Positions 754 through 20,260 of a stretch of 64,000 bases of DNA are shown here, in pieces. The notes beneath the pieces are model-generated. The model was not told where the DNA came from. It did no database searches and saw nothing but the letters and a program-made list of their open reading frames with translations. This stretch comes from Cryptosporangium arvum DSM 44712 (GTDB taxonomy: Bacteria > Actinomycetota > Actinomycetes > Mycobacteriales > Cryptosporangiaceae), in assembly GCF_000585375.1 (NCBI RefSeq), contig NZ_KK073874.1, positions 1,674,001 to 1,738,000 on the forward strand. Direction: 5' to 3'. A program made the position numbers and the translations under genes. Positions within the stretch are counted from its first letter, which is position 1; each line of letters opens with the position of its first letter.

Positions 754-932
754 GACAGATGCGCTCGTTTCCGGAACAACGATCATGGCCTATCGAGCGT
801 CAGGCGCGAGGTGAAGGCGCCGGGGGTCGAGCGCACGGTCGCGGTCGGCTGACGAATGGTGGCGACCGTTCACCCCGGCTACGTCGTGGCGTCGGTCGTG
901 ACCGGCACATGGACGCCAGCCGCGGCGCGTAT

Positions 933-947
933 TGACGATAGTTTTCA
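933..947. promoter_or_regulatory. Zur-like operator before the metal ABC transporter
   Basis: TGACGATAGTTTTCA matches 11 of 15 positions of the perfect Zur-type dyad core seen at 6057-6071. It continues into a second AT-rich half-site (TTTTCGTTTA) ending near 957. It lies about 70 bases before the start at 1016, in the only AT-rich stretch between 754 and 1015. The rest of that gap shows nothing else. Zur control is inferred from similarity to the other boxes in this window. Confidence 0.5.
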
Positions 948-1015
948 TTTTCGTTTAGGGTCCGCTCGCGGGATCCGACCGGTACGTGACCGTCGGGATG
1001 AGCGACGGAGACACG

Positions 1016-2104
1016 ATGACCACGACCCTCATACGCACGGAGACCGGCGCCGCCGCGCGGCGACCGGGCGGGCCGCCGTTCGCGTCGCCGCGCCGGTTCG
1101 CCGGGCTTCTCGGCGCGCTGACGCTGGCGCTGCTGGTCGTCGTCGTGCTCGGCGTCGCGATCGGCGCGGTCCGGATCGCCCCCGGCACTGTCCTCGACGT
1201 GATCGCCCACCATCTGGGCCTGCCGGTCACCGGTCTGGACCCGATCGCCGACCAGATCATCTGGACGACGAGGCTGCCCCGTGCCGTCCTCGCGGTCGTC
1301 GTCGGCGCCGGCCTGGCGGTCTCCGGAGCGGTGATCCAGGCCGTCGTCCGCAACCCACTCGGCGATCCGTACCTGATCGGGGTCGTACCCGGTGCCGGCC
1401 TGGGGGCGGTGACCGTGATCGTTCTCGGTGCGTCCGCGACGGCGGGGCTCTCGCTGTCCGCGGCGGCGTTCGTCGGGGCGCTGGTCGCCTTCGCCCTGAC
1501 GTTCCTGCTCGGTCGCCGGCACGGGCACTGGCCACCGGCCCGGCTCGTGCTCGCAGGCGTCGCGGTCGGCTATCTGGTGTCGGCGGTGACCTACTTCCTG
1601 CAGACGATCGCGACGCCGAACCAGGTGACGCGAGTGCTGTTCTGGAGTCTGGGCAGCGTCTCCAGCGCCCGCTGGGAGCAGTTACCGCTGCCCACGGTGG
1701 TGGTAGCCGCGGCGACGATCGGCCTGGTCCTGCAGGGGCGCCGGCTCAACGCGCTGGCCAACGGCGTGGAGATGGCCGGTGCGCTGGGCATCGCGGTCGG
1801 CCGGTTCCAGTTCGGCCTGATGCTCGTGGTCGCGCTGATGACCGGGACCCTGGTCGCGGTGTCCGGCGGAATCCTGTTCGTCGGGCTGGTGGTGCCGCAC
1901 GTCGCCCGGCTCCTGGTCGGTGCCGAGCATCGCCGGATGCTGCTGTGTTCGGTACTGCTCGGCGCGGTGTTCCTTCCGCTGGCCGACATCGCCGCCCGGA
2001 CGGTCCGCGCGCCGGTGGAGCTGCCTATCGGCATCGTCACCGCCGCCCTCGGCGCCCCGTTCTTCCTGTGGCTGCTCCGTTCCTCCCACCACGGGAGCCG
2101 ATGA
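1016..2104 (+). CDS. FecCD-family ABC transporter permease (metal, siderophore or metallophore uptake)
   Basis: This 362-residue protein has about ten hydrophobic segments typical of the FecCD/BtuC permease family, which forms the homodimeric channel for Fe-siderophore, haem, cobalamin and related metal-complex importers. Family hallmarks include the RLPRAV segment near the first third, GAVIQAVVRNPLGDP, and the carboxy-terminal GLVVPHVARLLVG loop that docks the ATPase. ATG 1016 was chosen because GGAG lies 5 bases upstream; an upstream GTG (986) lacks such a site. The ATPase start codon overlaps the stop (ATGA), so the three genes to 3881 form one operon. The Zur-like dyad upstream suggests the cargo is a zinc complex rather than iron, but the sequence does not show the ligand. 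Confidence 0.88.
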   Translation: MTTTLIRTETGAAARRPGGPPFASPRRFAGLLGALTLALLVVVVLGVAIGAVRIAPGTVLDVIAHHLGLPVTGLDPIADQIIWTTRLPRAVLAVVVGAGLAVSGAVIQAVVRNPLGDPYLIGVVPGAGLGAVTVIVLGASATAGLSLSAAAFVGALVAFALTFLLGRRHGHWPPARLVLAGVAVGYLVSAVTYFLQTIATPNQVTRVLFWSLGSVSSARWEQLPLPTVVVAAATIGLVLQGRRLNALANGVEMAGALGIAVGRFQFGLMLVVALMTGTLVAVSGGILFVGLVVPHVARLLVGAEHRRMLLCSVLLGAVFLPLADIAARTVRAPVELPIGIVTAALGAPFFLWLLRSSHHGSR

Positions 2105-2901
2105 TGCGCGTCTCCGCCACCGGGATCGACGTCGCGATCGCCGGCCGCACGATCGTGGCCGACGCCGTGCTGGACGCGCCGTCGGGCGCGTTCGTCGGAC
2201 TGCTCGGACCCAACGGCTCCGGGAAAACCACGCTGCTGCGCACTGTCTACCGGGCCTTACGCCCCGCACGCGGGGCCGTGCTCCTCGGTCATACCGACGT
2301 GTGGAGCCTGACCGCCCGGCAAGCGGCCCGCCGCACCGCCGTCGTGATGCAGGACGATCCGACCGAGTTCGAGTTCACTGTCCGCGAGGTCGTTGGCCTC
2401 GGTCGCGTCCCGCACCAGAACCTGCTCGGTCGTGCGACCGGCGAGGACCAGCGCGCCGTCGACGCCGCGCTGGCCCGCACCGGCGTGGAGCATCTCGCCG
2501 AGCGACCGGTCAGCAGCCTCTCCGGGGGTGAGCGCCAGCGGGTGTTCCTGGCCCGGGCGCTGGCTCAGGACACGCCGATCCTGGTGCTCGACGAGCCGAC
2601 CAACCATCTTGACGTCACGGCCCAGCTCGAACTGCTCGAGCTGGTGCGGGGTCTGGGCGTCACCGTGGTCGCCGCGCTCCACGACCTCAACCTCGCGGCC
2701 GCCTACTGCGACCAGATCTGTGTCCTGCGCGCCGGGCGGCTGGTGGCGTCCGGGCCGGTCGCCGACGTGCTGACCGCGGATCTGATCGCCGAGGTCTACG
2801 GCGTGCGCGCCGCGCTCGTCACCAACCCACTGACCGGGCAGCGCGGTTTTGCCTTCGCGCCGTCCCCGGAATCCGTCACCCAGATGAAGGAGCACGTATG
2901 A
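2101..2901 (+). CDS. FecE/BtuD-family ABC transporter ATP-binding protein
   Basis: A cytoplasmic ATPase of 266 residues that energises the permease encoded just upstream. Walker A is GPNGSGKT (36-43), the signature is LSGGERQR (140-147), Walker B is LVLDEP (161-166) followed by the D-loop NHLD, and the switch His sits in ALHDLN. The order and length match siderophore/B12-class ATPases. ATG 2101 overlaps the permease stop; a second ATG at 2104 would give a protein one residue shorter. The stop at 2899-2901 overlaps the next start, indicating tight translational coupling. Confidence 0.9.
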   Translation: MMRVSATGIDVAIAGRTIVADAVLDAPSGAFVGLLGPNGSGKTTLLRTVYRALRPARGAVLLGHTDVWSLTARQAARRTAVVMQDDPTEFEFTVREVVGLGRVPHQNLLGRATGEDQRAVDAALARTGVEHLAERPVSSLSGGERQRVFLARALAQDTPILVLDEPTNHLDVTAQLELLELVRGLGVTVVAALHDLNLAAAYCDQICVLRAGRLVASGPVADVLTADLIAEVYGVRAALVTNPLTGQRGFAFAPSPESVTQMKEHV

Positions 2902-3881
2902 GCAGCCGGCTCAGATCCGCAGCCCTGTCGATCGGTGCCGCTGCGGCGCTCACCCTGGCGGTCGCCGGGTGCGGGGGCGAGGGCACCGTCGCGCAGGCGT
3001 CCGCGTCCCGTTCGGCCGGCGCCGACTATCCCGTCACGGTCGAGAGCTGCAAACGCTCCGAGACGTTCACCGCCGCGCCGCAGCGGGTCGTCCTCGGCTG
3101 GGCGACCTCCATCCGGACGCTCGCCGCGCTCGGCGTCGCTGACCGGGTGACCGGCTACGTGAGCGGCAGCAACGTCAAGGTGCCGGATGGATTCACGGCG
3201 ACCGAGGTCTCCCCGGACTTCCAGCCGGCCAAGGAAGCGGTGCTCGCCGCGCGCCCCGACTTGTTCCTGGCGAACGACGAGAACCAGATCTCCGGCCAGC
3301 AGGGCACCGCCACACCCGACGACCTGGCCGCCCAGAACGGGCACGCCTACGTGCTGGGCGGCTACTGCCTCGCCGCGCCGGCGCCCGGCACGGTGGACGC
3401 CGTCTACGCCGACGTCGAGAAACTCGGGAAGATCTTCGGCGTCGGACCGAAAGCCGTCGACGTCGTCGCTGATCTGAAGAAGCGGGTCGCGCAGGCGCAG
3501 AAGCCGCGCGGTAACGCCGCTCCCGCGAAGGTCGCGATGATCCAGGTCTACGACGGCAAGGTCTACGCGCTGTCCGGGTCGTACTACAACGCGATCCTCG
3601 AAGGTGCCGGGCTGACGAACGTCTTCGGCGACTTGAAGGAGAACTTCGCCGAGATCAGCGCCGAGAAGGTGCTCACCGTCAAGCCGGATGCGCTGTTCAT
3701 CGCCCACGACGATCCTGCGGGCGGTGACGAGGCGCTGGCCGCCGCGCGGAAGGAGTTCGCCGCGAGCCCTGCGGTGACCGCCGGGAAGATCTTCGGGATC
3801 TCCAACCTCGAGATCAGCGGCGGCGGCGTCAACATCGTCACGCTGATCGAGCAGACCGCGAAGCAGGCGTACGGCGCCTGA
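2898..3881 (+). CDS. Periplasmic-binding-protein lipoprotein of the metal-complex ABC importer
   Basis: This 327-residue substrate-binding lipoprotein has a signal peptide ending in the lipobox LAVAGC, with Cys25 as the expected lipidation site. The mature part has the two-lobe FecB/BtuF-like fold. YPVTVESC and RVVLGWATSIRTLAALG form the start of lobe 1, and the long central helix (about residues 170-190) connects the lobes. Two mature cysteines (ESC near residue 51 and GGYC near 156) could form a disulfide. The family binds Fe3+-siderophores, haem, B12 or other chelates; the ligand cannot be read here. It is the last gene of the operon, and a strong hairpin follows at 4031-4063. Confidence 0.85.
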   Translation: MSSRLRSAALSIGAAAALTLAVAGCGGEGTVAQASASRSAGADYPVTVESCKRSETFTAAPQRVVLGWATSIRTLAALGVADRVTGYVSGSNVKVPDGFTATEVSPDFQPAKEAVLAARPDLFLANDENQISGQQGTATPDDLAAQNGHAYVLGGYCLAAPAPGTVDAVYADVEKLGKIFGVGPKAVDVVADLKKRVAQAQKPRGNAAPAKVAMIQVYDGKVYALSGSYYNAILEGAGLTNVFGDLKENFAEISAEKVLTVKPDALFIAHDDPAGGDEALAAARKEFAASPAVTAGKIFGISNLEISGGGVNIVTLIEQTAKQAYGA

Positions 3882-4063: not shown

Positions 4064-4100
4064 AACAGGTCGATCACCGGTGATTCAGGGGTCGCGCGGC

Positions 4101-4666: not shown

Positions 4667-4741
4667 CGTTCATATAGCTGAACGCGATCGAAAGATCACT
4701 TTAGGTGTTGAGAATCGAGATTCGCGCCCGCTGAGCATAAT

Positions 4742-4756
4742 TGCAAACCGTTGTCA
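4742..4756. promoter_or_regulatory. Zur-like operator before the MFS exporter
   Basis: TGCAAACCGTTGTCA differs at three positions from the perfect core TGAAAACGGTTTTCA found at 6057-6071. It ends 11 bases before the ribosome site GGAGG of the MFS gene, so a bound repressor would sit across the promoter or transcription start. Confidence 0.55.
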
Positions 4757-4777
4757 TTTCCGTATTGGAGGGTGCTT

Positions 4778-6001
4778 GTGGACTGGCCCGGGTTCGGCGG
4801 CTTCTTCGTGGCGCGAACGGTGTCCTGGGCCGGCTCGGCACTCACGCTGGTCGCGCTTCCCGTGCTCCTGTACGAGCGCACCGGCAACGCCGCGCTGACC
4901 GGACTGGCCACTGCGCTGGAGGCGCTGCCCTACCTGCTGCTCGGCCTGCCGGCCGGTGCGCTCGCCGACCGCTGGGACCGGCGCCGCACGCTCGTCGTCA
5001 CCGCACTCCTGAGCGGGTTGCTGCTGGCCAGCGTGCCGGTTGCCGACGCTTGGGGTGCCCTCACGCCCGCCCACGTGCTCGTCGTCGCCGGCGGTGTGGC
5101 GACGCTGTTCGTCTTCTCGGACGCGGCCACGTTCGGAGTGCTGCCCACGCTGGTCGGCCGGGACCGGATCGCCGGCGCGACCGGTCGGCTCAACACCGCC
5201 AATACGATCGTGACGGTGGCCGGCCCGGCCGTCGGCGGACTGAGCATGGCGGTGTTGGGCCCGGCCTGGACGCTCGGCCTGGATGCCGCCTCGTTCGCCG
5301 TCGCGGCTGTCCTGCTGCACCGTCTCGTCCTCCCGCCGGTGACGGTCCCCGAAGGTCCTCGACGGATGCGGGCGGAGATCGCCGAAGGGCTGCGGTTCCT
5401 GTGGAACCACCAGGCGATCCGATGGCTGACGCTGCTCGGCGTCGGCAACAGCCTGACCGGCGGCGCGGTGCTGGGCCTCGTGGTCGTCGCCGCGGTGCGC
5501 AACCTGGACCTCGGTGAGAGCGACGGCCGGATCGGCTTGCTCTACGCCGCCGCCGGCGCGGGAAGCCTGCTAGCCGGGATGCTGCTCCCACCGATCCGGG
5601 GCCGGCTGACGGTCGGCCGGATCACGCTCGCCGGGCTGCTGGCCGGCTGGGTCGCGGTCTCGGCCTGGGCGCTCAGTACCGGGTTGGTCGGAGGGCTCGT
5701 CGCGCTGGCCGCCTGGCAGGCCGCTCACGTCCTGGTCAACCTCAACGGCATCGTGTTGCGGCAGGAGTCCACCCCGGATGCGTTGCAGGGCCGCGTCAAC
5801 ACCACCGCCCGGATGATCGCCTGGGGCGGCCAGCCGCTCGGAGCCGCGCTCGGCGGCGTTCTTGCCGAGGTGTTCGACGTGCGGGCCGCGCTGCTGATCG
5901 CGGGCGCCGGGGTCGCAACGTCCGCGCTGGTCGGAGCCGGTGGCCGGCTGTGGCGCCTCGACGTGCGGACGCCGCGGCCCGAACCGGTCGTTCGCCCCTG
6001 A
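4778..6001 (+). CDS. MFS transporter, probable exporter of the RiPP
   Basis: A 407-residue, twelve-helix major facilitator protein. It carries the motif-A-like loop GALADRWDRRRTLVV between helices 2 and 3 and a repeat of that region in the second half. It resembles enterobactin-exporter/macrolide-efflux (MFS_3) proteins, which commonly export small natural products and siderophores. GTG 4778 was chosen because GGAGG lies 6 bases upstream; a TTG at 4751 would fall within the operator. The gene has its own Zur-like box and is followed, after 89 bases with another Zur palindrome, by the RiPP precursor. Export of the modified peptide, or immunity, is therefore the likely job. Confidence 0.82.
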   Translation: MDWPGFGGFFVARTVSWAGSALTLVALPVLLYERTGNAALTGLATALEALPYLLLGLPAGALADRWDRRRTLVVTALLSGLLLASVPVADAWGALTPAHVLVVAGGVATLFVFSDAATFGVLPTLVGRDRIAGATGRLNTANTIVTVAGPAVGGLSMAVLGPAWTLGLDAASFAVAAVLLHRLVLPPVTVPEGPRRMRAEIAEGLRFLWNHQAIRWLTLLGVGNSLTGGAVLGLVVVAAVRNLDLGESDGRIGLLYAAAGAGSLLAGMLLPPIRGRLTVGRITLAGLLAGWVAVSAWALSTGLVGGLVALAAWQAAHVLVNLNGIVLRQESTPDALQGRVNTTARMIAWGGQPLGAALGGVLAEVFDVRAALLIAGAGVATSALVGAGGRLWRLDVRTPRPEPVVRP

Positions 6002-6052
6002 CTTCGGAGAACCCCTTGCCCGCAACCGGGAGGGCCGTTTACCGTCACTCTC

Positions 6053-6075
6053 GTAATGAAAACGGTTTTCATTAC
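6053..6075. promoter_or_regulatory. Perfect Zur palindrome before the RiPP precursor
   Basis: Arms GTAATGAAAAC (6053-6063) and GTTTTCATTAC (6065-6075) are exact inverted complements around a single G. This is the strongest operator in the window and matches the known actinobacterial Zur box architecture. It ends 15 bases before the precursor ATG, with the ribosome site GAGAGGAG in between. Confidence 0.85.
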
Positions 6076-6090
6076 AGAGAGGAGCCTCCC

Positions 6091-6279
6091 ATGGAGTCGT
6101 TCTCGTTCGAGCCCATCGAAGAGCCCGTGGTCATGTCGGCCCTGCAGGGGCCGGGAACCAATGCGCTGGTGACCAACCCGTTCGCGTTCGAGGACGTGCA
6201 GGAGCCGGTGGTGATGTCGGCGCTGCAGGGCGTCGGCACCAACGCGCTGGTCGCGAACCCGTTCGCCTGGGCGCACTGA
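6091..6279 (+). CDS. RiPP precursor peptide with tandem-repeat core
   Basis: This 62-residue peptide lies between a perfect Zur box and RiPP enzymes. It consists almost entirely of a 27-residue unit (residues 4-30 and 31-57, with a third start FAW at 58-60). Each unit contains EPVVMSALQG, then GTNALV and NPFA. Unit differences are few: P/V at 21/48, T/A at 28/55, E/Q at 10/37. There is no cysteine or internal histidine (His62 is last), so YcaO chemistry would act on Ser16/Ser43, Thr23/Thr50, Thr28 or backbone amides. There is no obvious Gly-Gly leader boundary; the acidic FEP/FED-I/V-E/Q-E segments could act as recognition sequences between two core copies. GAGAGGAG is a strong ribosome site. 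The identity as precursor is inferred from context and repeats. Confidence 0.8.
   Translation: MESFSFEPIEEPVVMSALQGPGTNALVTNPFAFEDVQEPVVMSALQGVGTNALVANPFAWAH
6100..6261 (+). repeat. 81-bp in-frame tandem repeat in the precursor gene
   Basis: Codons 4-30 (6100-6180) and 31-57 (6181-6261) are two copies of one 81-bp unit. The protein sequences of the copies differ at only a handful of positions, while synonymous third-position changes are visible (for example in the GGAACCAATGCG versus GGCACCAACGCG segment). The peptide sequence is therefore kept while the DNA drifts. Confidence 0.85.
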
Positions 6280-6291
6280 CCCGGCCCTACC

Positions 6292-6323
6292 GCAGTGCCC
6301 CGCGCTCCGGCGCGGGGCACTGC
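6292..6323 (+). terminator. Strong hairpin (attenuator) between precursor and enzyme genes
   Basis: GCAGTGCCCCGCGC (6292-6305) pairs perfectly with GCGCGGGGCACTGC (6310-6323) around a 4-base TCCG loop. It starts 12 bases after the precursor stop and ends 34 bases before the next start codon. Such partial terminators are typical after RiPP precursor genes, giving much more precursor than enzyme mRNA. Confidence 0.75.
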
Positions 6324-6357
6324 CCCGTCCGAGTCCTTCTGGCAGACCGGAGCGTCC

Positions 6358-7188
6358 ATGACCGACCACGTCACCCTCGCCCCTGGCCATCACCTCTTCC
6401 GCGGCGCCGACGACGTCTGGCGCCTCTACGCACCGGGCGACCAGATCACCCGCATCGGCGGCCCCGACGAGGCGCTCGCCCACGCGCAGAACCGCCTCCA
6501 CAACACGGCCGAAGCCGGCGGAGGCGAGCTCGTCGACGAGCTGGAGCGCGGCCTCGCTCGCCGCGGTGCGCTCGCGCAACCGGTCCGGGCGGACTCGCAG
6601 GCGGCACAGCCGTGGACGGTGGTCGTCGCAGGCGACAACCCGATCGGACGCGCGGTGCGGACTCTGCTGGAGCCGTACGCCGATCTGCGTCCGCCCTGCG
6701 CCGGCGCTCTGACCGAGGACGACGTCCGCGCAGCGGACACGATCGTGACCTGCGGAGGATGGCTCACGGACCAGGCCTGGAGTGCGCTCGACGACTGGTG
6801 CCGCCGGCATGGGACCGCATGGCACCTGAGCTACGTCGAGGGCACGCGCCACTATCTCGGGCCGATGTACGTGCCGGGCCGCACGGCGTCCTATCGCGAC
6901 ACCCGAGGACGGCGGCTGGCTGCCTCCGGGGTTCCCGATGAACTGCGCGGGTTCTGGGCCTACTTGGAGAGTGACGCTGCGCTGCCTCCGGTGCCCTGGC
7001 CCGATCCGGCGGGTGCGGCTGTCGTCGCCGGCCTTCTCGTCGGTGACCTGCTGCGGTACCGGCGGACGGGCACTCCCGCCGCAGCGGGACACCAGCTCGG
7101 GTTCGATCCGGCTCACGCGACGGTGACCCGGCACCCGGTGCTCCCGCTCCCGGAAACCGCCTCGGTTCCGGCGGGAACAGCTCGGTGA
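6358..7188 (+). CDS. RRE/ThiF-like partner protein of a YcaO cyclodehydratase system
   Basis: A 276-residue protein. Residues about 10-72 look like a RiPP recognition element: the winged-helix pattern LYAPGDQITRIGG, helix EALAHAQNRL, then ELVDELERGLARRGALA. Residues 86-200 form a Rossmann-like ThiF/E1 remnant starting VVVAGDNPIGRAV, which lacks the nucleotide-binding and Cys residues of true E1 enzymes. This layout matches 'ocin-ThiF-like' C-proteins that bind the precursor and deliver it to the YcaO D-protein. ATG 6358 follows GGAG by 5 bases; the upstream in-frame start would lie in the hairpin. The stop overlaps the next start (GTGA). Confidence 0.7.
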   Translation: MTDHVTLAPGHHLFRGADDVWRLYAPGDQITRIGGPDEALAHAQNRLHNTAEAGGGELVDELERGLARRGALAQPVRADSQAAQPWTVVVAGDNPIGRAVRTLLEPYADLRPPCAGALTEDDVRAADTIVTCGGWLTDQAWSALDDWCRRHGTAWHLSYVEGTRHYLGPMYVPGRTASYRDTRGRRLAASGVPDELRGFWAYLESDAALPPVPWPDPAGAAVVAGLLVGDLLRYRRTGTPAAAGHQLGFDPAHATVTRHPVLPLPETASVPAGTAR

Positions 7189-8720
7189 CGCCCCGGCTCA
7201 ACCTCCGCGTCCCCGGGGAAGACGGCACACCGCTGGCCACCGATGTCTACCCGGCGGCCGCTCCGGCGCCGGTCGTCGTGACCCGCACCGCCTACGGGCG
7301 CAGCGCACACCGGGCGGAAGGCCAGGCGTGGGCGGCTCGCGGATTCGCCTTCGTCGCCCAGGACGTCCGTGGCCGCCACGACTCCGACGGTGCCTGGAGC
7401 CCTTACCGCAACGAGCGCGCCGATGGTGCCGCGCTGATCGACTGGGTGCTTCGCCGGCCCTGGTGCGACGGGCGGCTGGTCACCACCGGCGGCTCTTACG
7501 CCGGGTACACGGCCTGGGCCGCCGCCGTGACCCGCCCCGACGCGGTCCGCGCGGTGCTCAGCACCGGCCCGGCGATGGGCCTCGACCGTGTCAAGTTCGA
7601 CCCGGCGGGCATCCTGCGGCTCGCCGAGCACGCCACCTGGTGGCTCACCCGCGCCGAGTCCCGCACCAGCCGCGAAGGCCTGGTCACCGAGGTCGCGAGG
7701 CGCGATCCGCAGTGGCTGCACCACCTGCCGGTCGTCGGCATCGCGGAGCGCATGTGGGCCCGCCTGGAGCACTGGAGCGACACCATCACCGGCGGACCCG
7801 GCGCGGAAGGACCGGAAGCGATCACTGACGCCGAGTTGGCCGCCTTTCCCGGCGCGGCGTTCCACGTCGGCGGCTGGTACGACCTGCTGCTCGCCGAGAC
7901 CCTACGCCAGTGGGACGTCGTCGGATCCGCGGTCAGCCCCCGGCCGGGGCGGCAGCTGCTGCTCGGTCCGTGGGACCACGGATTCGTCTGGGCACCGACC
8001 ACCCGCATCGGTGGCCGCGACCACGGCCCGGACTCCCGGATACCGCTCGGGCCGCGCCAGGTGAGGTGGCTGCGCGAGATCCTCGGCGGCGCCCGACGAA
8101 GCCGGGCCGACGTATTCGTCGTCGGGGCCGGCTGGAGCAGCTCGCCCGCATGGCCACCGCCCACCGCCCCCACGGTTCTCTGGGCCACCGGCGACGACAC
8201 CCTCGCCGACACGCCACCGGACACCGGAAGCGCCCGGACCTACGTCTACGACCCGAAGGATCCCCTGCCGTCCAGCGAGCCCGGCGCCGACCGGGCGGAA
8301 CTCGAGGGGCGCACCGATGTCGTCCGCTGGTGCGGGCCGGCGCTGGACCAGCCGATGACCCTCGCCGGAACACCCTGCGTGGTCCTGTCCGCTTCCACCG
8401 ATGCGCCGGCCACCGACTTCGTCGTCCGGATCTCCGAGCGGACGACCGACGGACGGGTGCTGCCGCTGGCCTCCGGAGCCGTCGACACGTCGCGGAGCGC
8501 GGGCCCGGCCCACCGCATCCCGCTGACCCCGATCGCGGTCCGGATCCCGGCGGGCTCGCGCCTGGTGCTGGAAGTCACGAGCAGCGACTTCCCGTACCTC
8601 GCGCGGTCACTCAACACCGGCGCCGACCGCTACACCACCACCGACACCGTGGCGGCCACTCAAACCATCCACGCCGGGCCCGGCGGCACCCGGGTCGAGC
8701 TTCCGGAGCAGGTGACATGA
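7185..8720 (+). CDS. CocE/NonD-family (X-Pro dipeptidyl-peptidase-like) serine hydrolase
   Basis: This 511-residue alpha/beta hydrolase belongs to the S15/CocE class. The nucleophile elbow GGSYAG places the catalytic Ser at 104; Asp233 (GGWYDLL) and His265 (PWDHGF) complete the expected triad. The carboxy-terminal 180 residues form the jelly-roll domain typical of the family. Members cleave X-Pro peptides, esters or acyl amides. It sits inside the RiPP operon with overlaps on both sides (GTGA at 7185, ATGA at 8717), so it most likely trims or acyl-modifies the peptide; the Pro-rich precursor (EP, GPG, NPF) offers candidate sites. The start is GTG, and the substrate is unknown. Confidence 0.82.
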   Translation: MTPRLNLRVPGEDGTPLATDVYPAAAPAPVVVTRTAYGRSAHRAEGQAWAARGFAFVAQDVRGRHDSDGAWSPYRNERADGAALIDWVLRRPWCDGRLVTTGGSYAGYTAWAAAVTRPDAVRAVLSTGPAMGLDRVKFDPAGILRLAEHATWWLTRAESRTSREGLVTEVARRDPQWLHHLPVVGIAERMWARLEHWSDTITGGPGAEGPEAITDAELAAFPGAAFHVGGWYDLLLAETLRQWDVVGSAVSPRPGRQLLLGPWDHGFVWAPTTRIGGRDHGPDSRIPLGPRQVRWLREILGGARRSRADVFVVGAGWSSSPAWPPPTAPTVLWATGDDTLADTPPDTGSARTYVYDPKDPLPSSEPGADRAELEGRTDVVRWCGPALDQPMTLAGTPCVVLSASTDAPATDFVVRISERTTDGRVLPLASGAVDTSRSAGPAHRIPLTPIAVRIPAGSRLVLEVTSSDFPYLARSLNTGADRYTTTDTVAATQTIHAGPGGTRVELPEQVT

Positions 8721-10072
8721 CACTGGATGCCCCCACCCCCGCCGAAGCCTTGCTCGTCGACCCCCGGTTCGGGCTGCTGACCGCCGTCCGTCCCGACCCG
8801 TACCCGGAGATGCCGGCCGCGTGGGTCGGCTACGGTGCCGCCGTCGCCGACACCAGACAGTTCACGGACTGGCACGCCGACCCGTTCGGCTTCGGAGCCG
8901 CGGTCGGCGATCCCGACCGGGCCCGCCGCGCCGCGATCGGCGAGGCCGTCGAGCGCTACTGCGGCCGCGTCGTGCCACCGGACCTTTTCCGGGGCAGCTG
9001 GCGGCAGTGGGGTGAGAACGCGCTGGACCCGGAGACGTTCGCCCTGTACTCCGACCGGCAGTACGCGACGCCGGGATTTCCTTTCGTGCCGTTCGGCCGG
9101 GACACCGAGGCCGAGTGGGTCGAGGGCAGAGACCTCCGCGACCACTCCCCGGTACTGGTGCCCGCCACCTCGGTCTACCTCGACTACCGGCCACCGGGCC
9201 GTCGCCCGCTGCACGCGCTCTCCTACGCGGGCATCGCCGCCGGTACCGACCGCGAGCACGCCGAACGGTTCGCGCTCGAGGAACTCTTCGAGCGGGACGC
9301 GACCACGATCTGGTGGGCCAGCGGCGCCCCGGCCGAACTCGTCGCCGACGGCTACCGCGTCGTCGACCTGCTCGACGACCGGCACGCGGACCGTCGACGA
9401 GTGCGGCTGCTGCGGGTGCCGTCACCGTTCGGCGTCCCGGTGCTCTGCGCGTTCATCGAGGACGCCGACCGGGGACTGGTGGCCTTCGGCAGCGCATGCC
9501 GGGCGGACCCGGTCGAAGCTGGACTCAAGGCGCTCGTCGAAGCGCTCGGCCTGCTGCAGATGACCGCACAGCTGGCCGACCCGGACAGCGAGCTCTGGAG
9601 TGCCCGGCAGCGCGGAACGATCCTGCCGCACACGTTCGTGGCGTTCCGCGCCGACCGCCGGTACTCCGAGAGCTTCCGCGCCGACTACCGGGATCTCGTG
9701 GATCTACCCGCGCTCGCCCAGCTCTACCTCGACCCCCGGATGCAGGGCTCACCGCTGGAGCGGCTGCGCCCGGAGTCGCCCCGGATCGCGCTCGCCGACA
9801 TCCCGCGGATCGCGGATCCCTACGAGAGCTACCTGGCCAAGCTGACCGACGCCGGTCACCGAATCGTCTCGGTCGACGTCACGACACCGGACGTGCGGGC
9901 CGCCGGGCTCTGCGTCGTCCGGGTCGTCGTCCCGGGCCTCTACGGCAACGCCCCGGCTGCGTTCCCGTACCTGGGCGGGCGTCGGCTCTACGAGGTACCG
10001 GTGGACGCCGGCTGGATCGACCGACCGCTCACCGAGGACACGCTCGTCCGCGACCCCCTTCCCCTGGCATGA
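8717..10072 (+). CDS. YcaO-domain protein (first copy)
   Basis: A 451-residue YcaO-family protein. YcaO enzymes use ATP to phosphorylate a peptide amide and drive azoline, thioamide or amidine formation. Visible ATP-site features are GEAVERYC (75-82), FALEELFERDATT, and the later ALKALVEAL-type helix. The conserved ending DVTTPDVRAAGL plus VVPGLYGNAPAAFPYLG is typical of the family. The last residues DPLPLA resemble a shortened PxPxP tail seen in azoline-forming members. No TfuA gene or flavin dehydrogenase (SagB-like) is next to it, so thioamides are less likely and any azolines would stay unoxidised. ATG 8717 overlaps the hydrolase stop. Confidence 0.85.
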   Translation: MTLDAPTPAEALLVDPRFGLLTAVRPDPYPEMPAAWVGYGAAVADTRQFTDWHADPFGFGAAVGDPDRARRAAIGEAVERYCGRVVPPDLFRGSWRQWGENALDPETFALYSDRQYATPGFPFVPFGRDTEAEWVEGRDLRDHSPVLVPATSVYLDYRPPGRRPLHALSYAGIAAGTDREHAERFALEELFERDATTIWWASGAPAELVADGYRVVDLLDDRHADRRRVRLLRVPSPFGVPVLCAFIEDADRGLVAFGSACRADPVEAGLKALVEALGLLQMTAQLADPDSELWSARQRGTILPHTFVAFRADRRYSESFRADYRDLVDLPALAQLYLDPRMQGSPLERLRPESPRIALADIPRIADPYESYLAKLTDAGHRIVSVDVTTPDVRAAGLCVVRVVVPGLYGNAPAAFPYLGGRRLYEVPVDAGWIDRPLTEDTLVRDPLPLA

Positions 10073-11385
10073 ACAGCCGGATCGACCCACGGGTCGTCGC
10101 CGCGCTGGTCGACGAGCGGACCGGCATCCTCCGCCGGGTCGAGCGCCGACCCGTCCCGGCCCACGTGCCGCGGTCGTTCACGCTCGTCCGGTCCGTCATT
10201 GCCGACAGCTCCGCGTTCAGCGACTGGGTCAGCGACACCGCCGGCGCCGGGTACACGTTCGGTGATCCGGACGCCGCTCTCGCCGCGGCCGTCGGCGAAG
10301 GCATCGAGCGGTACTGCGCCCACCTGATCCCGCCCGGCTTACGCGTGGCGCGCCATCGCGACGTGGACGGCGACGCGATCGACCCGGCCACGATCGCCCT
10401 CTACTCCCGCGACCAGTACGCCCAGCCCGGCTTTCCCTTCGCGCCCCTGGACGCTGACACCGTCACCGAGTGGGCCGACGGCGCGGACCTCCTCGACCGC
10501 CGCCCGATGGCGGTTCCCGCCGCGCTCGTCTGGCCCGGCCATCACCGGCTGGCCGACCGTCCACTCGCACCCGTGCTGCAGGCGGGACTGGCGGCCGGCC
10601 CGACCCGGCAGATCGCCGAGCAGCACGCGCTGGCCGAGGTGATCGAGCGGGACGCGATGACGCTGGGCTGGACCGGGCGGGCGGGCCTGCGGCCGGTGGA
10701 GCCGCCGCCGTGGCTGTCCCGGCTCGCGCGCGGTCCGCATCGTCGGCTGGAAGCGTCGTTCCTGGCGTTCCCGAACGAGTTCGACGTGCCGGTGATCGGG
10801 GCGCTGCTCTCCGACCCGGAGACCGGCCGGCTCGGCCTGGGCACCGGCTGCCGTTCCGGGCCGGTCGCCGCCGCGCTCAAGGCGCTGGGCGAGGCCCTCC
10901 AACTCCTGTTGCTGCTGGGTGAGTACGACGACCCGGCCGGGCCATTCGCCGCAGCAGCCAGGCACCCGACCAGCCCGCTCAGCCCGTGGCGCGCCGACCG
11001 CTCCTACCTCGCGCAGCGCCGCGACGACCTTCGCGACGTCGTCGACTACGGCGCCCACCTGCAACTCGCGCTCGACCCGGCCTATCAGAAGCGGTTCGCC
11101 GACGAGCTGGCCGAAGCCGTGCGGGACCGGACGCCGTGGGCACTGCCCGACGAAGACACCGGGGATACGCCGGACCTGGTACGTCGCTCGGCCGAGCGCG
11201 GGCACCGGCCGGTGTCGGTCGATCTGACGACCCCGGACGTTCGGTCGGCCGGGCTGACCGTCGTTCGGGTCGTCGTTCCCGGGTTGTACGGCAACGCCGC
11301 CGCGGGCCTGCCCTTCCTCGGCGGTGAGCGGATGCGCCGCGCGCTGAACGGGCGTCCGTACCGGGCGCTGCCGCTGCCGCACTGA
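10069..11385 (+). CDS. YcaO-domain protein (second copy)
   Basis: This 438-residue YcaO paralogue is translationally coupled to the first (ATGA at 10069). The same core signatures are present: GEGIERYC (76-83), ALAEVIERDAMTLGW, ALKALGEALQL, DLTTPDVRSAGL and VVPGLYGNAAAGLPFLG. It ends ALPLPH, again a partial Pro-rich tail. The two copies are clearly related but diverged throughout, so they probably act on different residues or as an active/inactive pair, as in two-YcaO systems such as bottromycin. It is the last gene of the cluster, and a decayed gene follows on the other strand at 11394. Confidence 0.85.
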   Translation: MNSRIDPRVVAALVDERTGILRRVERRPVPAHVPRSFTLVRSVIADSSAFSDWVSDTAGAGYTFGDPDAALAAAVGEGIERYCAHLIPPGLRVARHRDVDGDAIDPATIALYSRDQYAQPGFPFAPLDADTVTEWADGADLLDRRPMAVPAALVWPGHHRLADRPLAPVLQAGLAAGPTRQIAEQHALAEVIERDAMTLGWTGRAGLRPVEPPPWLSRLARGPHRRLEASFLAFPNEFDVPVIGALLSDPETGRLGLGTGCRSGPVAAALKALGEALQLLLLLGEYDDPAGPFAAAARHPTSPLSPWRADRSYLAQRRDDLRDVVDYGAHLQLALDPAYQKRFADELAEAVRDRTPWALPDEDTGDTPDLVRRSAERGHRPVSVDLTTPDVRSAGLTVVRVVVPGLYGNAAAGLPFLGGERMRRALNGRPYRALPLPH

Positions 11386-11393
11386 CCGGAGGC

Positions 11394-11944: not shown

Positions 11945-12032
11945 GTGCTCATCGGTGATCGACGCGGCGGCACGCGGTGCGGCACGGACCGTGCCGGAGC
12001 GGCCCGGGGCAACCGGCCAGTGTTATCTTCAG

Positions 12033-12071: not shown

Positions 12072-13007
12072 ATGGTGGCCTCACGAAGTCGATGGACGTT
12101 AGGCGCGGTCGGCCTGGCTACCGTCGCGACGCTGGTGGCGGGCTGCGGTTCGTCGGACGACGGGGCCACGACCGCCGCGTCCGACGGTGCGAAGAGCACT
12201 CAGGTCGTCGCCTCGACGAACGTCTACGGCGACATCGTCAAGCAGATCGCCGGAGACTCGTCCAAGGTCGAGATCACCTCGATCATCAGCGACCCCTCAC
12301 AGGACCCGCACTCGTACGAGGCGAACACCCAGACCCAGTTGAAGCTGTCGAAGGCCGACCTCGTCATCGAGAACGGTGGTGGTTACGACGACTTCATGGA
12401 CACGATGCTCAAGAGCGCGAACAACGGCGACGCCACCGTGCTCAACGCGGTCGAGGTCTCCGGAAAGACCGCGCCCGCGGACGGTGAGCTGAACGAGCAC
12501 GTCTGGTACGACCTGCCGTCGATCGAGAAGCTCGTCCCCAAGATCACCGAGGCGCTGAGCGCCGCGGACACGTCCGAGAAGGCCACGTTCGAGGCCAACG
12601 CGAAGACTTTCCTCGGCAAGGTCCAGCAGCTGGAGAGCGCCGCGGCCGCGATCAAGGCGAAGCACAACGGTGAGGGCGCGGCGATCACCGAGCCGGTCCC
12701 GGTCTACCTCCTGCAGGCCAGCGGCCTGGTCGACAAGACCCCGGAGGAGTTCAGCGAGGCCGTTGAAGAAGGCACCGATGTCCCGGCGGCCGTGCTCCAG
12801 GAAACCCTCGGTCTCTTCACCGCCAAGCAGGTCAAGGTACTCGCCTACAACGAGCAGACTGCCGGGCCGGAGTCGGACAAGGTCGTGGCCGCCGCGAAGT
12901 CCGCCGGTGTCCCGGTCGTCGCGGTCACCGAGACCCTGCCGCCGGGCAAGGACTACGTGAGCTGGATGAGCGGCATGCTGTCCTCGCTCCAGACCGCCCT
13001 CGGCTGA
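12072..13007 (+). CDS. znuA: Zinc ABC transporter substrate-binding lipoprotein ZnuA/AdcA-like
   Basis: A cluster A-I/TroA-family metal-binding lipoprotein of 311 residues. The signal peptide ends VAGC with lipidated Cys25. Two expected zinc ligands are visible, His80 in DPHSYE and His143 in NEHVWYD. The usual third His is replaced in the segment ITEPVPVYLLQASGL, as in many actinobacterial homologues, so Glu or another residue may complete the site. There is no His-rich acidic loop. Residues KTPEEFSEAVEEGTD and AYNEQTAGPES match the C-lobe. ATG 12072 follows GGAG by 7 bases. It heads the znuACB operon under a Zur-like box. Confidence 0.88.
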   Translation: MVASRSRWTLGAVGLATVATLVAGCGSSDDGATTAASDGAKSTQVVASTNVYGDIVKQIAGDSSKVEITSIISDPSQDPHSYEANTQTQLKLSKADLVIENGGGYDDFMDTMLKSANNGDATVLNAVEVSGKTAPADGELNEHVWYDLPSIEKLVPKITEALSAADTSEKATFEANAKTFLGKVQQLESAAAAIKAKHNGEGAAITEPVPVYLLQASGLVDKTPEEFSEAVEEGTDVPAAVLQETLGLFTAKQVKVLAYNEQTAGPESDKVVAAAKSAGVPVVAVTETLPPGKDYVSWMSGMLSSLQTALG

Positions 13008-13010: not shown

Positions 13011-13880
13011 ATGGCAGCCCCGAGAAACGACCTGCTGGAGGTCAGGCGAGCGACGCTCGCCTACGGTTCGCGGGTGATCTGGCAGGAGCTCGACCTGGCC
13101 GTGCGGCGGGGTGAGTTCCTGGCCGTGCTCGGCGCGAACGGGTCGGGAAAGACCAGCCTGCTCCGGGTCGTTCTCGGCCTCCAGCCGCTGAGCTCCGGCA
13201 CCGTCCTGGTCGACGGGGCCCGACCGCGCCGCGGAAGTAACGCGGTCGGATACGTCGCGCAGCAGCGCGCCAGCGACTCGCCCATGCCGCAGCGGGCCAA
13301 GGACCTCGTCGGCCAGGGCCTCGACGGCCACCGGTGGGGTATCGGGCTCCCCGGCCGGGACCGGGAGCGACGGATCCGGGCCGCGCTGGACGAAGTCGGA
13401 GCGCTCAGCTACGCCGACTGGCCGATCGGCGCGCTCTCCGGCGGTGAACAGCAGCGCGTCCGGATCGCGCAGGCGCTCGTCGCCGACCCGCGATTACTGC
13501 TCTGCGACGAGCCGCTCTCCTGGTTGGACGTGACCAGCCAGCAGACGATCAGCAGCCTGGTCGATCGGTGGCGGCGGGAACACGACAGCGCGGTGCTGTT
13601 CGTGACCCACGACATCAACCCGGTGCTGCCCTACGTCGACCGCGTGCTCTACATGGCCGGCGACGGGCAGCACCGTCTCGGCACCGTCGACGAGGTACTG
13701 ACCGGCGACACACTCAGCGCCCTGCACGGCGCGCCCGTCGATGTCGTCCGGTTGCGCGACCGCATCGTCATCGTCGGGCTGCCCGAAGCCGCCCATCCGC
13801 ACGGGGCGCACCCGGACCCGGCGCACCCGGACCCGGCGCACCCCGAGCCGGCGCGCCCGGAGAAGGTGCACTCCGCATGA
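13011..13880 (+). CDS. znuC: Zinc ABC transporter ATP-binding protein ZnuC
   Basis: This 289-residue ATPase of the metal ABC family has Walker A GANGSGKT (41-48), a signature starting LSGGEQQR, Walker B LLLCDEP and the H-loop VTHDIN. The start is 3 bases after the znuA stop. The last 30 residues form a His/Pro/Glu-rich tail with a repeated AHPDP unit (HPHGAHPDPAHPDP, then AHPEP). This is unusual for the family and could bind zinc on the cytoplasmic face. The stop overlaps the znuB start (ATGA). Confidence 0.9.
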   Translation: MAAPRNDLLEVRRATLAYGSRVIWQELDLAVRRGEFLAVLGANGSGKTSLLRVVLGLQPLSSGTVLVDGARPRRGSNAVGYVAQQRASDSPMPQRAKDLVGQGLDGHRWGIGLPGRDRERRIRAALDEVGALSYADWPIGALSGGEQQRVRIAQALVADPRLLLCDEPLSWLDVTSQQTISSLVDRWRREHDSAVLFVTHDINPVLPYVDRVLYMAGDGQHRLGTVDEVLTGDTLSALHGAPVDVVRLRDRIVIVGLPEAAHPHGAHPDPAHPDPAHPEPARPEKVHSA

Positions 13881-14797
13881 CCGTCTCCGTCCTCGCCGAC
13901 GCGCCTCCGAGCTTCTGGCACCAGATCTTCAACTTCGACGACTACGGCCAGCTGCTCGCGCTGGTGCACAACTCGCTCATCGCCGGCGCCGTCCTGGGTG
14001 TCGTCGGTGGGCTGGCCGGGGTGTTCGTCGTGATGCGCGACCTGCCGTTCGCCGTCCACGGCATCAGCGAGCTGTCGTTCGCCGGGGCGTCCGGAGCGCT
14101 GCTGCTCGGTGCGAACGTCGTCGTCGGGTCGCTGGCGGGGTCGGTGATCGCGGCCCTGCTGATCGGTGTGCTGGGCAGCCGGGCACGCGACCGGAACTCG
14201 ATCATCGGCGTGCTCATGCCGTTCGGGCTCGGGCTCGGCGTCCTGTTCCTCGCGCTCTACAAAGGCCGTGCCGCGAACAAGTTCGGCTTGCTCACCGGGC
14301 AGATCGTGGCAGTCGACACCCCCCAGCTGTCCTGGCTGGTCGGTGTCTCGGTGGTCGTACTCCTGGGGCTGCTGGCGATCTGGCGACCGCTGCGCTTCGC
14401 CAGCCTCGACGCCGAGCTGGCCGCGGCCCGTGGGGTGCCGGTGCGGTTGCTCTCGCTGGCGTTCATGCTCCTGCTGGGACTGGCCGTGGCGGTGGCCGTC
14501 CAGGTCGTCGGCGCCCTGCTGGTACTGAGCATCATCGTGACGCCGGCCGCCGCAGCGGCGCGGGTGACCGTCGCGCCAGCCCGGATGGTGGCCTTCAGCG
14601 TCGCGTTCGCCGTGGTCTCGCTGCTCGGCGGGATCCTGCTCGCACTGGGCAGCAGCGTCCCGATCAGCCCGTACGTGACCACGATCGCGTTCGCGATCTA
14701 CCTCGTCTGCTGGCTCATCGGTGCCCGGCGGCAGCGGCGAGGCTGGTCCTCGGCACGAGCCCTGCCGTCGCGGACTCCCGTCGTCACCGCCGCCTGA
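13877..14797 (+). CDS. znuB: Zinc ABC transporter permease ZnuB
   Basis: A 306-residue ABC-3 family permease with eight or nine hydrophobic helices. It includes the family segments FAVHGISELSFAGASGALL and VQVVGALLVLSIIVTPAAAA, which surround the substrate path and the ATPase-coupling loop. It is the last gene of znuACB. Its final 100 bases overlap, tail to tail, the extended 3' end of the zur gene on the other strand. Confidence 0.9.
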   Translation: MTVSVLADAPPSFWHQIFNFDDYGQLLALVHNSLIAGAVLGVVGGLAGVFVVMRDLPFAVHGISELSFAGASGALLLGANVVVGSLAGSVIAALLIGVLGSRARDRNSIIGVLMPFGLGLGVLFLALYKGRAANKFGLLTGQIVAVDTPQLSWLVGVSVVVLLGLLAIWRPLRFASLDAELAAARGVPVRLLSLAFMLLLGLAVAVAVQVVGALLVLSIIVTPAAAAARVTVAPARMVAFSVAFAVVSLLGGILLALGSSVPISPYVTTIAFAIYLVCWLIGARRQRRGWSSARALPSRTPVVTAA

Positions 14798-15315
14798 GCG
14801 CCGCCGGGCGTCCCCGGGCCGGATCGTCGGCCCGTGGCGGCTGGTCGCCGGGCGCCCGGCGGTGCCGTCTGCGACTGGGCGCCCGGCTCGATCCGGGGGC
14901 GGGGCTTCGTGCCGACGGCGGCGCAATCGGCGCAGGTTCCGAACATCTCGACCCGGTGACTGACGTCGGTGAAGCCGCTGTCGCGCACCACCGCGTCGAC
15001 CCAGGCCTCACTGGCCGGCGCGGTGACCTCGATGGTTGCCAGGCAGGACCGGCAGATCAGGTGATGGTGATGCACCGGCGTGCAATGGCGGTACATCTGC
15101 TCCCCGTGTACGCCGTGGACCGCGTCGACCTCACCGGCTTCGGCCAGCGTCTGCAAAGTGCGGTACACGGTCGCCAGGCCCAGCTCCACACCACGAGCCC
15201 GCAGCGCCGTGTAGATCTGCTGGGCGCTGCGGAACTCCGGCGTCTCCTTGAGGAACGCGTGCACCGCCGTGCGCTGCCTGGTCGTGCGCATTCCCGCAAG
15301 CGTTCCCTCGGCCAT
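14698..15315 (-). CDS. zur: Zinc uptake regulator Zur (Fur family) with an extended C-terminus
   Basis: A 205-residue Fur-family repressor. The winged helix spans about 8-75 (FRSAQQIYTALRARG, then LATVYRTLQTL). The metal sites include HHHH (82-85), Cys88/Cys91 and Cys128/Cys131, the two CxxC motifs of the structural zinc site. Zur proteins usually stop soon after the second CxxC (about 135-140 residues); here 70 Pro/Arg/Gly-rich residues follow and run 100 bases into znuB on the other strand, suggesting a lost stop codon. ATG 15315 follows GAGGAG by 7 bases. It is the likely regulator of all the TGAAAA...TTTTCA boxes in this island. Confidence 0.88.
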   Translation of the reverse strand: MAEGTLAGMRTTRQRTAVHAFLKETPEFRSAQQIYTALRARGVELGLATVYRTLQTLAEAGEVDAVHGVHGEQMYRHCTPVHHHHLICRSCLATIEVTAPASEAWVDAVVRDSGFTDVSHRVEMFGTCADCAAVGTKPRPRIEPGAQSQTAPPGARRPAATGRRSGPGTPGGAQAAVTTGVRDGRARAEDQPRRCRRAPMSQQTR

Positions 15316-17375: not shown

Positions 17376-17690
17376 TCAGGCGACCTCGTCCGCGTGCCGG
17401 ATGGCGTCCAGGACGATGTGTGCGACGTGGTCGTCGACCAACGAATACTCGATCTCCCGGGCACGCCGGTGCGCCTCGACGACACCGGCGCCGCGCAGGA
17501 TCCGCAAGTGCTGGGACACCAGCGGCTGACTCGCCTCGAGCGCTGCGACCAGCGCGTGGACCGGCTTGGGTCCTTCGGCCAGCTCACGCACGATGCCCAG
17601 CCTGATCGGCGCGGCGAGTGCGCGGAGCAGGTCGCTCGCCGGTTGCAGTCGCTGGGTCACCCCGTCCGGGGGTGGCGGGCCGACCGTCAT
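17376..17690 (-). CDS. ArsR/SmtB-family zinc sensor repressor
   Basis: A 104-residue winged-helix repressor. The recognition helix region is QPLVSQHLRILRGAGVV (55-71). The last helix carries the exact SmtB/CzrA alpha-5 zinc motif D-x-H-x10-H-x2-E: Asp86, His88, His99 and Glu102. That site binds Zn(II) (or Co) across the dimer and releases DNA, so this protein should derepress its targets in zinc excess. No alpha-3 cysteine site is present. The gene lies between the His-rich protein gene (56 bases upstream) and the AsnB-like gene. It is likely autoregulated through the AT-rich motifs at 17699 and 18083. Confidence 0.85.
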   Translation of the reverse strand: MTVGPPPPDGVTQRLQPASDLLRALAAPIRLGIVRELAEGPKPVHALVAALEASQPLVSQHLRILRGAGVVEAHRRAREIEYSLVDDHVAHIVLDAIRHADEVA

Positions 17691-17746: not shown

Positions 17747-18049
17747 TCAGTGGTCGTCCCAGTGGCCGTCGTGCGGAGCGTGACGGTGGCCGTCGTGGAC
17801 GTAATCGGTGTGGTCCCCGTGGCTGACCGCCGGGTGGCCGCAGTCCGTGCCGTGCTCGTGCGCATGCTCGGCGTGGACCCGGTGGGCCACGGGCTCGCAC
17901 TCGTCGACGTGGTCTTCGTGGACACGATGGACGTGGCCGTCGTGCGCGTAGTCGGTGTGGTCCTCGTGCGCGAACGCGGTGTGGCCGCAGGTGTCGCCGT
18001 GCTGGTGGTCGTGCTCGGTGTGGGGCTTGTGGGCAACGGGCGTGGTCAT
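17747..18049 (-). CDS. Histidine-rich metal-binding protein with internal duplication
   Basis: A 100-residue soluble protein with 27 histidines, many Asp/Glu and three Cys. Two 21-residue units starting CGH and ending HDGHxH (residues 21-41 and 70-90) share the core DHTDY, so half the protein is a duplication. There is no signal peptide or membrane segment. Such proteins act as zinc or nickel buffers or stores. The revised-strand ribosome site AGAGGA precedes ATG 18049. It is first in the operon with the SmtB-like sensor, which supports a role in zinc excess, although storage for later starvation is also possible. Confidence 0.8.
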   Translation of the reverse strand: MTTPVAHKPHTEHDHQHGDTCGHTAFAHEDHTDYAHDGHVHRVHEDHVDECEPVAHRVHAEHAHEHGTDCGHPAVSHGDHTDYVHDGHRHAPHDGHWDDH

Positions 18050-18112: not shown

Positions 18113-18296
18113 GCGGCGAAGCGGCGGGCGGTGAGGCGACGCCCCGGTCCGCGATCGGCTCGTGGTCGTCGCTCGCGTGGACCGCGCGCAGGAGGGCCGG
18201 GCCGCCCTCGCGGGTCCGGTCGGCGAGCGCGTGCGGGTCGGCGGGGCGCTGGGGGCGCGTCGAGGGTCGCCGGCGCATGTCCTACCGTAGAGCACA

Positions 18297-18311
18297 TGAC
18301 AATCATTTTCG
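18297..18311. promoter_or_regulatory. Zur-like operator before the ribosomal protein operon
   Basis: TGACAATCATTTTCG matches 12 of 15 positions of TGAAAATGATTTTCA. It lies 13 bases before the ATG of the rpmB remnant (18325), the expected place for Zur control of the cysteine-free ribosomal protein genes. Confidence 0.65.
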
Positions 18312-18324
18312 ATAACTCGATGCG

Positions 18325-18868: not shown

Positions 18869-18876
18869 GAGATCTG

Positions 18877-20260
<1,384 letters not shown>

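Follow-up and report, generated by a model that had tools for sequence, protein, structure and literature searches.

A streptamidine-type peptide gene cluster with predicted Zur control in Cryptosporangium arvum

The peptide cluster and its neighbourhood

A 64,000-nucleotide stretch of Cryptosporangium arvum DSM 44712 (hereafter the window), contained in a single 9.2-Mb contig, carries a gene cluster for a ribosomally synthesized and post-translationally modified peptide (RiPP), followed by genes of zinc homeostasis. The cluster comprises an importer operon, an exporter, a repeat-type precursor and four genes for its modification and processing (Table 1), and, by its sequence, it is a member of the published streptamidine family. 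Because its promoters carry Zur-type boxes that are common to most of its actinobacterial relatives, we predict that it is repressed by Zur in response to zinc. We consider it very probable that this is a streptamidine-type cluster under Zur control.

Russell et al. (2021) described more than 230 clusters of the streptamidine family (‘Network 1’ RiPPs), in which fecBCDE-like genes are frequent, and isolated streptamidine itself, which contains an amidine ring (PMC8442711). The window holds the family’s characteristic set: a precursor with the family motif, YcaO proteins of the family type, an AmiB-like partner and an AmiC-like hydrolase, and a FecBCDE-like importer. The precursor matched NF040715, the model of the streptamidine-related RiPP repeat protein (E 3e-32), and found no match in PHROG; in alignment, its core is about ALQGPG/ALQGVG. 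The strict NF040715 repeat model is rare: in a search of 396 genomes of the phylum, the window alone matched it. In YcaO, identity is 53-61% to loci of Frankia, Streptosporangium, Clavibacter, and Rhodococcoides whose precursors belong to this type. For the partner, an AlphaFold2 model (mean predicted local distance difference test score of 91) matched in Foldseek the cyanobactin heterocyclases LynD/TruD, as well as MccB, and the same fold likeness was published for AmiB by another method (PMC8442711). A search with the partner yielded 60 proteins including the window’s own, 47 of which were aligned.

The best NCBIfam models of the FecCD-type permease are F420-0, B12, and iron-complex permeases, and those of the major facilitator superfamily (MFS) protein are 2A0121 and EntS, all below their cut-offs. 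The closest solved chain to the substrate-binding protein is 5cr9 (E 2.4e-18), and 90% or more of 38 aligned sequences share the protein’s Cys25. Between importer and exporter lies an SCO5389-family gene (4101-4493, minus strand; PF20704 ‘NucS shadow ORF’, NF040488), with a weak Zur-type dyad upstream of it at 4652-4666. An original prediction, made from the sequence alone, had named the MFS exporter, the 62-residue repeat precursor, an RRE/ThiF-like partner (RRE, RiPP recognition element), a CocE-type hydrolase, two YcaO proteins, and an importer-class ABC (ATP-binding cassette) system next door; positions and families were borne out for all of the cluster genes, and the importer proved to be the FecCD/FecE/Peripla_BP_2 operon at 1016-3881.

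The same prediction held that such a system had not been described. This does not stand for the peptide family, which was published as streptamidine together with a metal-import hypothesis (PMC8442711), but it stands for the link to Zur, which is new as far as the literature searched extends. None of the matches listed in the open-licence PMC literature connects the family with Zur; the term ‘Zur’ is absent from the main text of PMC8442711 (count 0), and the portion of PMC12161575 that treats Zur and coelibactin contains no RiPP.

The peptide cluster is followed by a compact zinc island (12072-19044) with znuABC, a Zur-like gene, an ArsR/SmtB regulator, a His-rich protein, and rpmG2-rpsN2-rpmF2. 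The best PDB relatives of the Zur-like regulator are 3mwm, a ‘putative metal uptake regulation protein’ (E 8.5e-42) that we take to be the S. coelicolor Zur, and the zinc uptake regulator FurB (2o03, E 4e-41); the third, a Fur, falls to E 4e-15. A cysteine-free ribosomal protein operon of the rpmG2-rpsN2-rpmF2 type is a textbook Zur target. In the window, all three of its products, L33 (18399-18563), S14 (18563-18868), and L32 (18877-19044), are cysteine-free. Between the Zur-type box and rpmG2 (18325-18399), we observed a 24-codon open reading frame (ORF) that starts MSTRCQVTG and stops early; this start presumably resembles ribosomal protein L28, and the ORF is possibly an rpmB2 remnant. An asparagine synthase (glutamine-hydrolysing) type gene also lies within the island (15449-17353, minus strand). 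The genome has six PF01475 genes, and about 50 kb before the window a second Fur-family gene, Zur-like by eye, stands with a znuA and a box of its own (L203; L numbers are our labels for loci).

Table 1 Features of the window (coordinates within the window)
Feature	Position	Strand	Evidence
Zur-type box before FecCD importer operon	930..950		15/21 to main box; 12/14 symmetric Zur consensus
FecCD-type permease	1016..2104	+	PF01032 E 3.6e-90
ABC importer ATPase (FecE-like), start codon assumed	2101..2901	+	PF00005 E 7e-31
Substrate-binding protein, Peripla_BP_2 (siderophore/heme/B12 class), lipobox-type cysteine	2898..3881	+	PF01497 E 1.6e-17
Weaker Zur-type box before exporter	4739..4759		16/21 to main box; 11/14 symmetric consensus
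MFS exporter	4778..6001	+	PF07690 E 2.8e-26, PF05977
Zur box (main box), perfect 11+1+11 palindrome (23 bp)	6053..6075		15 nt before precursor ATG
62-aa precursor, two repeats ...SALQG(P/V)GTNALV(T/A)NPF...	6091..6279	+	NF040715 110 bits, cut-off 45
AmiB-like RRE/E1-like partner of YcaO enzymes	6358..7188	+	TIGR03882 E 1e-6, below cut-off
CocE/NonD (X-Pro dipeptidyl-peptidase type) hydrolase, AmiC-like	7185..8720	+	TIGR00976 240 bits, cut-off 66; PF02129, PF08530
YcaO protein 1	8717..10072	+	PF02624 E 4e-59; TIGR03604 295 bits, cut-off 219
YcaO protein 2	10069..11385	+	PF02624 E 1.6e-53; TIGR03604 250 bits, cut-off 219
ZnuA-type zinc-binding protein	12072..13007	+	PF01297 E 1.2e-48, in longer ORF 11727-13007
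ZnuC-type ATPase	13011..13880	+	PF00005; AztA/ZnuC models below cut-off
ZnuB-type permease	13877..14797	+	PF00950 E 2.5e-42
Fur-family regulator, Zur-like	14698..15315	-	PF01475 E 4e-29
ArsR/SmtB metalloregulator	17376..17690	-	NF033788 82 bits, cut-off 55
His-rich 100-aa protein	17747..18049	-	Sequence; no family match
Zur-type box before ribosomal paralogues	18294..18314		11/14; 10/11 of S. coelicolor 15-mer
rpmG2-rpsN2-rpmF2 operon	18399..19044	+	PF00471, PF00253, PF01783

Zur-type boxes in the window, the genome, and related clusters

The original prediction rested on a perfect palindrome before the precursor and a second dyad before the exporter. On rechecking, the first (6053-6075) agreed with the 21-bp actinobacterial Zur box, a consensus derived from znuA genes and quoted in PMC5472717, at each of its 15 specified positions, and the second is present in a weaker form at 4739-4759. 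The boxes at 930-950 and 18294-18314 are additions to these two dyads; besides the four, nothing in the 64 kb scores 14/21 to the main box. The pattern TAATGAAAACNNTTTTCATTA, with up to three mismatches, occurs once in the genome. Across 40 control windows (799,200 positions in ten genomes, with coordinates picked by us rather than drawn at random), nine sites reached 10/14 and one reached 11/14, and since such sites are so rare there, the boxes of the window exceed chance. A further dyad, AATGATAATCATTA, lies upstream of the Zur-like gene (15361-15374) and is perhaps an autoregulatory site.

Elsewhere in the genome, boxes of this type mark classical zinc-starvation genes. Allowing two mismatches, TGAAAANNNTTTTCA has 23 genomic sites, compared with nine for the reversed control pattern, and five of the 23 fall within the window (933-18311). 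We inspected ten of the 18 sites outside it: four precede or abut genes for cysteine-free S14, L31, ZnuA, and a divergent ZnuB/ZnuC pair, and six have no zinc gene, a call that rests on the ORF sequence. The 15-mer TGTAAACCTCTTTCA is present three times (G000:C1 60466, 1845086, 2619123), probably as a repeated element rather than as Zur sites. The locus combines Zur boxes at its promoters with a zur-like gene in the genome.

We then compared related clusters. A scan with a YcaO alignment covered one genome each for 84,980 species, of which the best 80 of 358 loci were taken, and a scan with a partner alignment covered 394 genomes of the class, with 33 matches at E<=1e-5, including several weak ones outside such clusters. 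Excluding the window’s own, this gave 109 loci; 66 without a NALVxNPF-type precursor were removed before the box count, as were six near-duplicates among the remaining 43, leaving 37. We counted as a Zur-type box any site scoring 10/14 or better in the 460 nt that precede the precursor motif. Such a box was found in 30 of the 37 loci, reaching at least 11/14 in 25 and at least 12/14 in 20. These counts were never reached by 300 permuted palindromes (means 2.28, 0.37, and 0.06; maxima 22, 13, and 6), and a second run of 200 permutations behaved alike (means 2.45, 0.43, and 0.09; maxima 16, 9, and 3). Five of the loci are not, or are not known as, actinobacterial (L074, L079, L083, L109, L114); among the 32 actinobacterial loci, 29 carry the box. 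Its position is also conserved: 27 of the 30 boxes lie 100-175 nt upstream of ALV, whether the cluster is of the motif-B type or of the streptamidine type with motif A.

The box is found in streptamidine clusters proper as well. A one-genus search found the streptamidine precursor in 25 of 199 genomes, each with a box of at least 10/14; after removal of five near-duplicates, all 20 loci reached 10/14 and 15 reached 12/14, counts that none of 300 permutations attained (means 2.12 and 0.04, maxima 19 and 6). In 15 of the 25 loci, 11/11 positions of the S. coelicolor 15-mer from chromatin immunoprecipitation were matched. We take the genus to be Streptomyces on the evidence of one member’s partner protein: among 120 listed relatives, all named ones are Streptomyces except one Kitasatospora. 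P0264, a partner protein from S. albidoflavus by its name, also belongs to the relatives.

We also looked at pairing between the half-sites. From 68 precursor loci, we left out 28 that were short or near-duplicates, keeping 40, and for a second set a further eight without a box of at least 10 at 95-180 nt, keeping 32. The consensus of the 32 box-aligned loci is TAATGAAAATCATTTTCATTA, and the three column pairs that are free in the published consensus are complementary in 24, 24, and 21 of 32 loci, versus 4-12 of 32 just outside the box. Over the 40 unselected loci, 77 of 120 free pairs are complementary, compared with a permuted mean of 38 (2 of 200 permutations were as high or higher).

Some of the left-out loci have the box before other small ORFs, namely the variants NALVHTPF and NALVDSPF and an unrelated SSNHA type. 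In L082, L088, L097, L100, and L105 (Actinomadura, Micromonospora, Nocardioides), another type of small ORF, about 31-35 aa counted from its ATG and containing HSSNHA, occupies the precursor’s place upstream of the YcaO genes and likewise follows a Zur-type box; for that of L088, one NCBIfam comparison with unchecked coordinates gave no match. The NSIVHNPF loci L061 and L063 have a box of at least 11 before FecCD only.

The importer accompanies the family as well. Of 34 precursor loci that span at least 19 kb, 26 have both FecCD and FecE, as against none of the 40 control windows; among the eight loci without the pair, L109, L115, L120, L121, and L123 hold weaker FecCD matches. FecCD genes with a separate promoter are preceded by a box of 10 or more in 14 of 23 cases and those inside operons in 3 of 35, all three from one Rhodococcus locus type (counts without de-duplication). 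Zinc-homeostasis genes lie within about 10 kb of a YcaO gene in 8 of 38 named precursor loci (L055, L058, L060, L062, L068, L074, L108, L114; znuABC, zur, His-rich, L32, or COG0523) versus 0 of 40 controls (Fisher p 0.002). Outside the actinobacteria, two Paenibacillus loci contain five Bacillus-type Zur boxes each at 15/20 or better, as many as in none of 500 permutations; the boxes precede the genes for the hydrolase, substrate-binding protein, ATPase, and a COG0523 protein, among others, and one of the loci has two CobW/COG0523-type genes. The Holophagales and Thermoanaerobaculia loci (L074, L083) have no box. The original prediction of Zur control thus gained support from a box that is conserved across the family and marks classical Zur targets in this genome, and from the adjoining Zur-like gene and znuABC.

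A possible role in zinc acquisition and its alternatives

What could a Zur-controlled peptide do? With zinc present, Zur would occupy the palindromes, the main one lying 15 nt ahead of the precursor start, and block transcription, as the identity and position of the boxes suggest. In low zinc, precursor, enzymes, exporter, and importer would be made along with zinc-free ribosomal proteins and zinc importers. Judging from homology, the partner and YcaO proteins would act on each core repeat, presumably forming an amidine ring as in streptamidine, and the hydrolase would trim off flanks. The peptide would then leave through the MFS protein and return through the lipoprotein and FecCD system, a route suggested by the co-conservation of the putative dedicated export and import genes that a zincophore would have (MFS; FecCD/FecE/FecB). 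Finally, and speculatively, the imported form would release its zinc and be cut down. This whole chain, in which a Zur-repressed peptide is made in zinc starvation, exported, and re-imported with zinc for its acquisition, we regard as moderately likely, with the carriage of zinc by the window peptide its speculative part. The discoverers of streptamidine had themselves proposed metal import, with neither the metal nor the function found (PMC8442711).

Several observations weigh against this proposal or parts of it. With respect to Zur control, seven of the 37 loci have no box of at least 10/14 (L059, L064, L066, L074, L079, L083, L109): a related CATGGAAA-C/T-GGTTTCCATG palindrome is present in two of these, a contig end truncates another, and one is a Paenibacillus locus, while the remaining three, two of them not actinobacterial, show nothing. 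Three of the 30 boxes are more distant than the rest (L026, L071, L114), and that of L114 (Paenibacillus) scores 10, with five equally good sites elsewhere in the locus; the Bacillus-type boxes of Paenibacillus stand before hydrolase and importer genes and none before the precursor. The conservation of the box (1.49 bits, compared with 0.15-0.17) is partly built in, because the 32 loci were chosen for it. The original prediction would have failed if the cluster were usually far from zinc genes, and here the comparison cuts both ways: proximity exceeds that of the controls, yet in 30 of the 38 clusters zinc genes are missing from the neighbouring 10 kb, although the box accompanies the cluster. 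Substantial streptamidine was obtained in the published fermentation media (PMC8442711), so repression was not tight there. With respect to zinc carriage, the residues His, Cys, Asp, and Glu, which could bind zinc, are all missing from the core of the window peptide. Streptamidine bound none of seven metals tested, zinc included, and a streptamidine-less mutant equalled the wild type under metal starvation (PMC8442711). The label ‘zincophore’ of the original prediction stays putative for the window peptide, and published assays on its relative streptamidine were negative for zinc binding (PMC8442711).

A broader version of the proposal is tentative, and we would call it possible rather than probable. 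The streptamidine family would be the first class of ribosomal zincophores, Zur-repressed from Streptomyces to Paenibacillus, and streptamidine itself would be the metal-free stump of a longer peptide that gives up its zinc after re-import via AmiF1-F4. For streptamidine to appear, both the importer genes and the dehydrogenase are required, although streptamidine is unoxidised, and the loss of an oxidised part is one option listed by its authors (PMC8442711). A spent fragment would fit this need for importer and dehydrogenase, the missing oxidation, and the lack of metal binding (PMC8442711). An importer deletion could, however, also harm the promoter, because in such clusters the box sits between importer and precursor, as in L033 (FecE, then the box at 2635 and the precursor at 2493).

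The most serious alternative, which we hold to be rather unlikely, retains Zur control and dispenses with the zinc carrier: the peptide would be a signal or a zinc-shortage antimicrobial, and the importer would serve sensing or self-uptake. The negative metal-binding tests of streptamidine (PMC8442711) and a core free of metal-ligand side chains speak for it, and a signal would be suited equally by the co-conserved importer and exporter; however, streptamidine showed no antibacterial or antifungal activity (PMC8442711), and Pfam and PDB matches place the importer in the siderophore/heme/B12 class. That class of transport, together with the permease’s sub-threshold F420-0, B12, and iron-complex models, could instead point to a different cargo of the peptide, another metal or a cofactor (cobalt, copper, nickel) needed in zinc shortage. 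We consider this improbable, as the boxes are of the Zur type common to znuA and zinc-free ribosomal proteins, and none of the seven metals was bound by streptamidine (PMC8442711). Least credible of the three is that the palindrome serves another Fur-family regulator. The six PF01475 genes and the mutual resemblance of Fur-family boxes leave some room for it; against it stand the complete match of the main box to the znuA-derived consensus, the four zinc-starvation gene sets marked by the same 15-mer elsewhere in the genome, the closeness of the adjoining regulator to actinobacterial Zur structures, and the Bacillus-type Zur boxes of the Paenibacillus clusters. A chance palindrome is ruled out by conservation, the pairing of free positions, and the control windows; iron (DtxR/IdeR) control by the absence of a DtxR box of at least 14/18 before the precursor in all 37 relatives; and a classical azole peptide (LAP/TOMM) by core repeats that hold two Ser/Thr and no Cys and are not Ser/Thr/Cys-rich.

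Comparison with known systems

With a conserved Zur box before the precursor in 29 of 32 actinobacterial loci, this family gains a likely metal and a growth condition, and what so widespread an orphan peptide family does becomes directly testable. With streptamidine clusters, the window shares the precursor family, the AmiB-like partner, the CocE-type hydrolase, YcaO proteins, and the FecBCDE-like importer. It differs in having an MFS exporter rather than the AmiT1-T2 ABC pair, and in the absence of a dehydrogenase (AmiE) among its genes at 1016-11385, as in many family members (PMC8442711). A two-YcaO subset, mostly of motif B, was described in Frankia, Rhodococcus, and Clavibacter (PMC8442711); the H found at one position in most motif-B relatives (ALVHNPF) is replaced by T/A in the window repeats.

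The zinc genes of this genome resemble the classical actinobacterial Zur regulon, with which it shares the boxes, znuABC, rpmG2, rpsN2, rpmF2, and rpmE2 (PMC6103462, PMC5472717). The S. coelicolor targets include znuABC, rpsN2, rpmG2, rpmF2, and rpmE2, and the row for its Zur regulon lists coelibactin genes and no ribosomal peptide cluster (PMC6103462).

Zur-controlled metallophores are taken up as the metal complex; for the window peptide, zinc binding is speculative. Methanobactins and other copper-binding RiPPs resemble the window system in that a ribosomal peptide is tied to one metal; methanobactins differ in metal (copper), enzymes, and regulators. Neither ethylenediaminedisuccinic acid (EDDS) nor pseudopaline is known to be a ribosomal peptide. 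Coelibactin of S. coelicolor, EDDS of Amycolatopsis japonicum, and pseudopaline of P. aeruginosa are likewise secreted small molecules controlled by Zur (PMC6103462), and coelibactin, unlike the window’s ribosomal peptide, is nonribosomal (PMC3430247). If the carrier step holds true, ribosomal peptides would be a further kind of zinc scavenger beside the nonribosomal and opine-type molecules.

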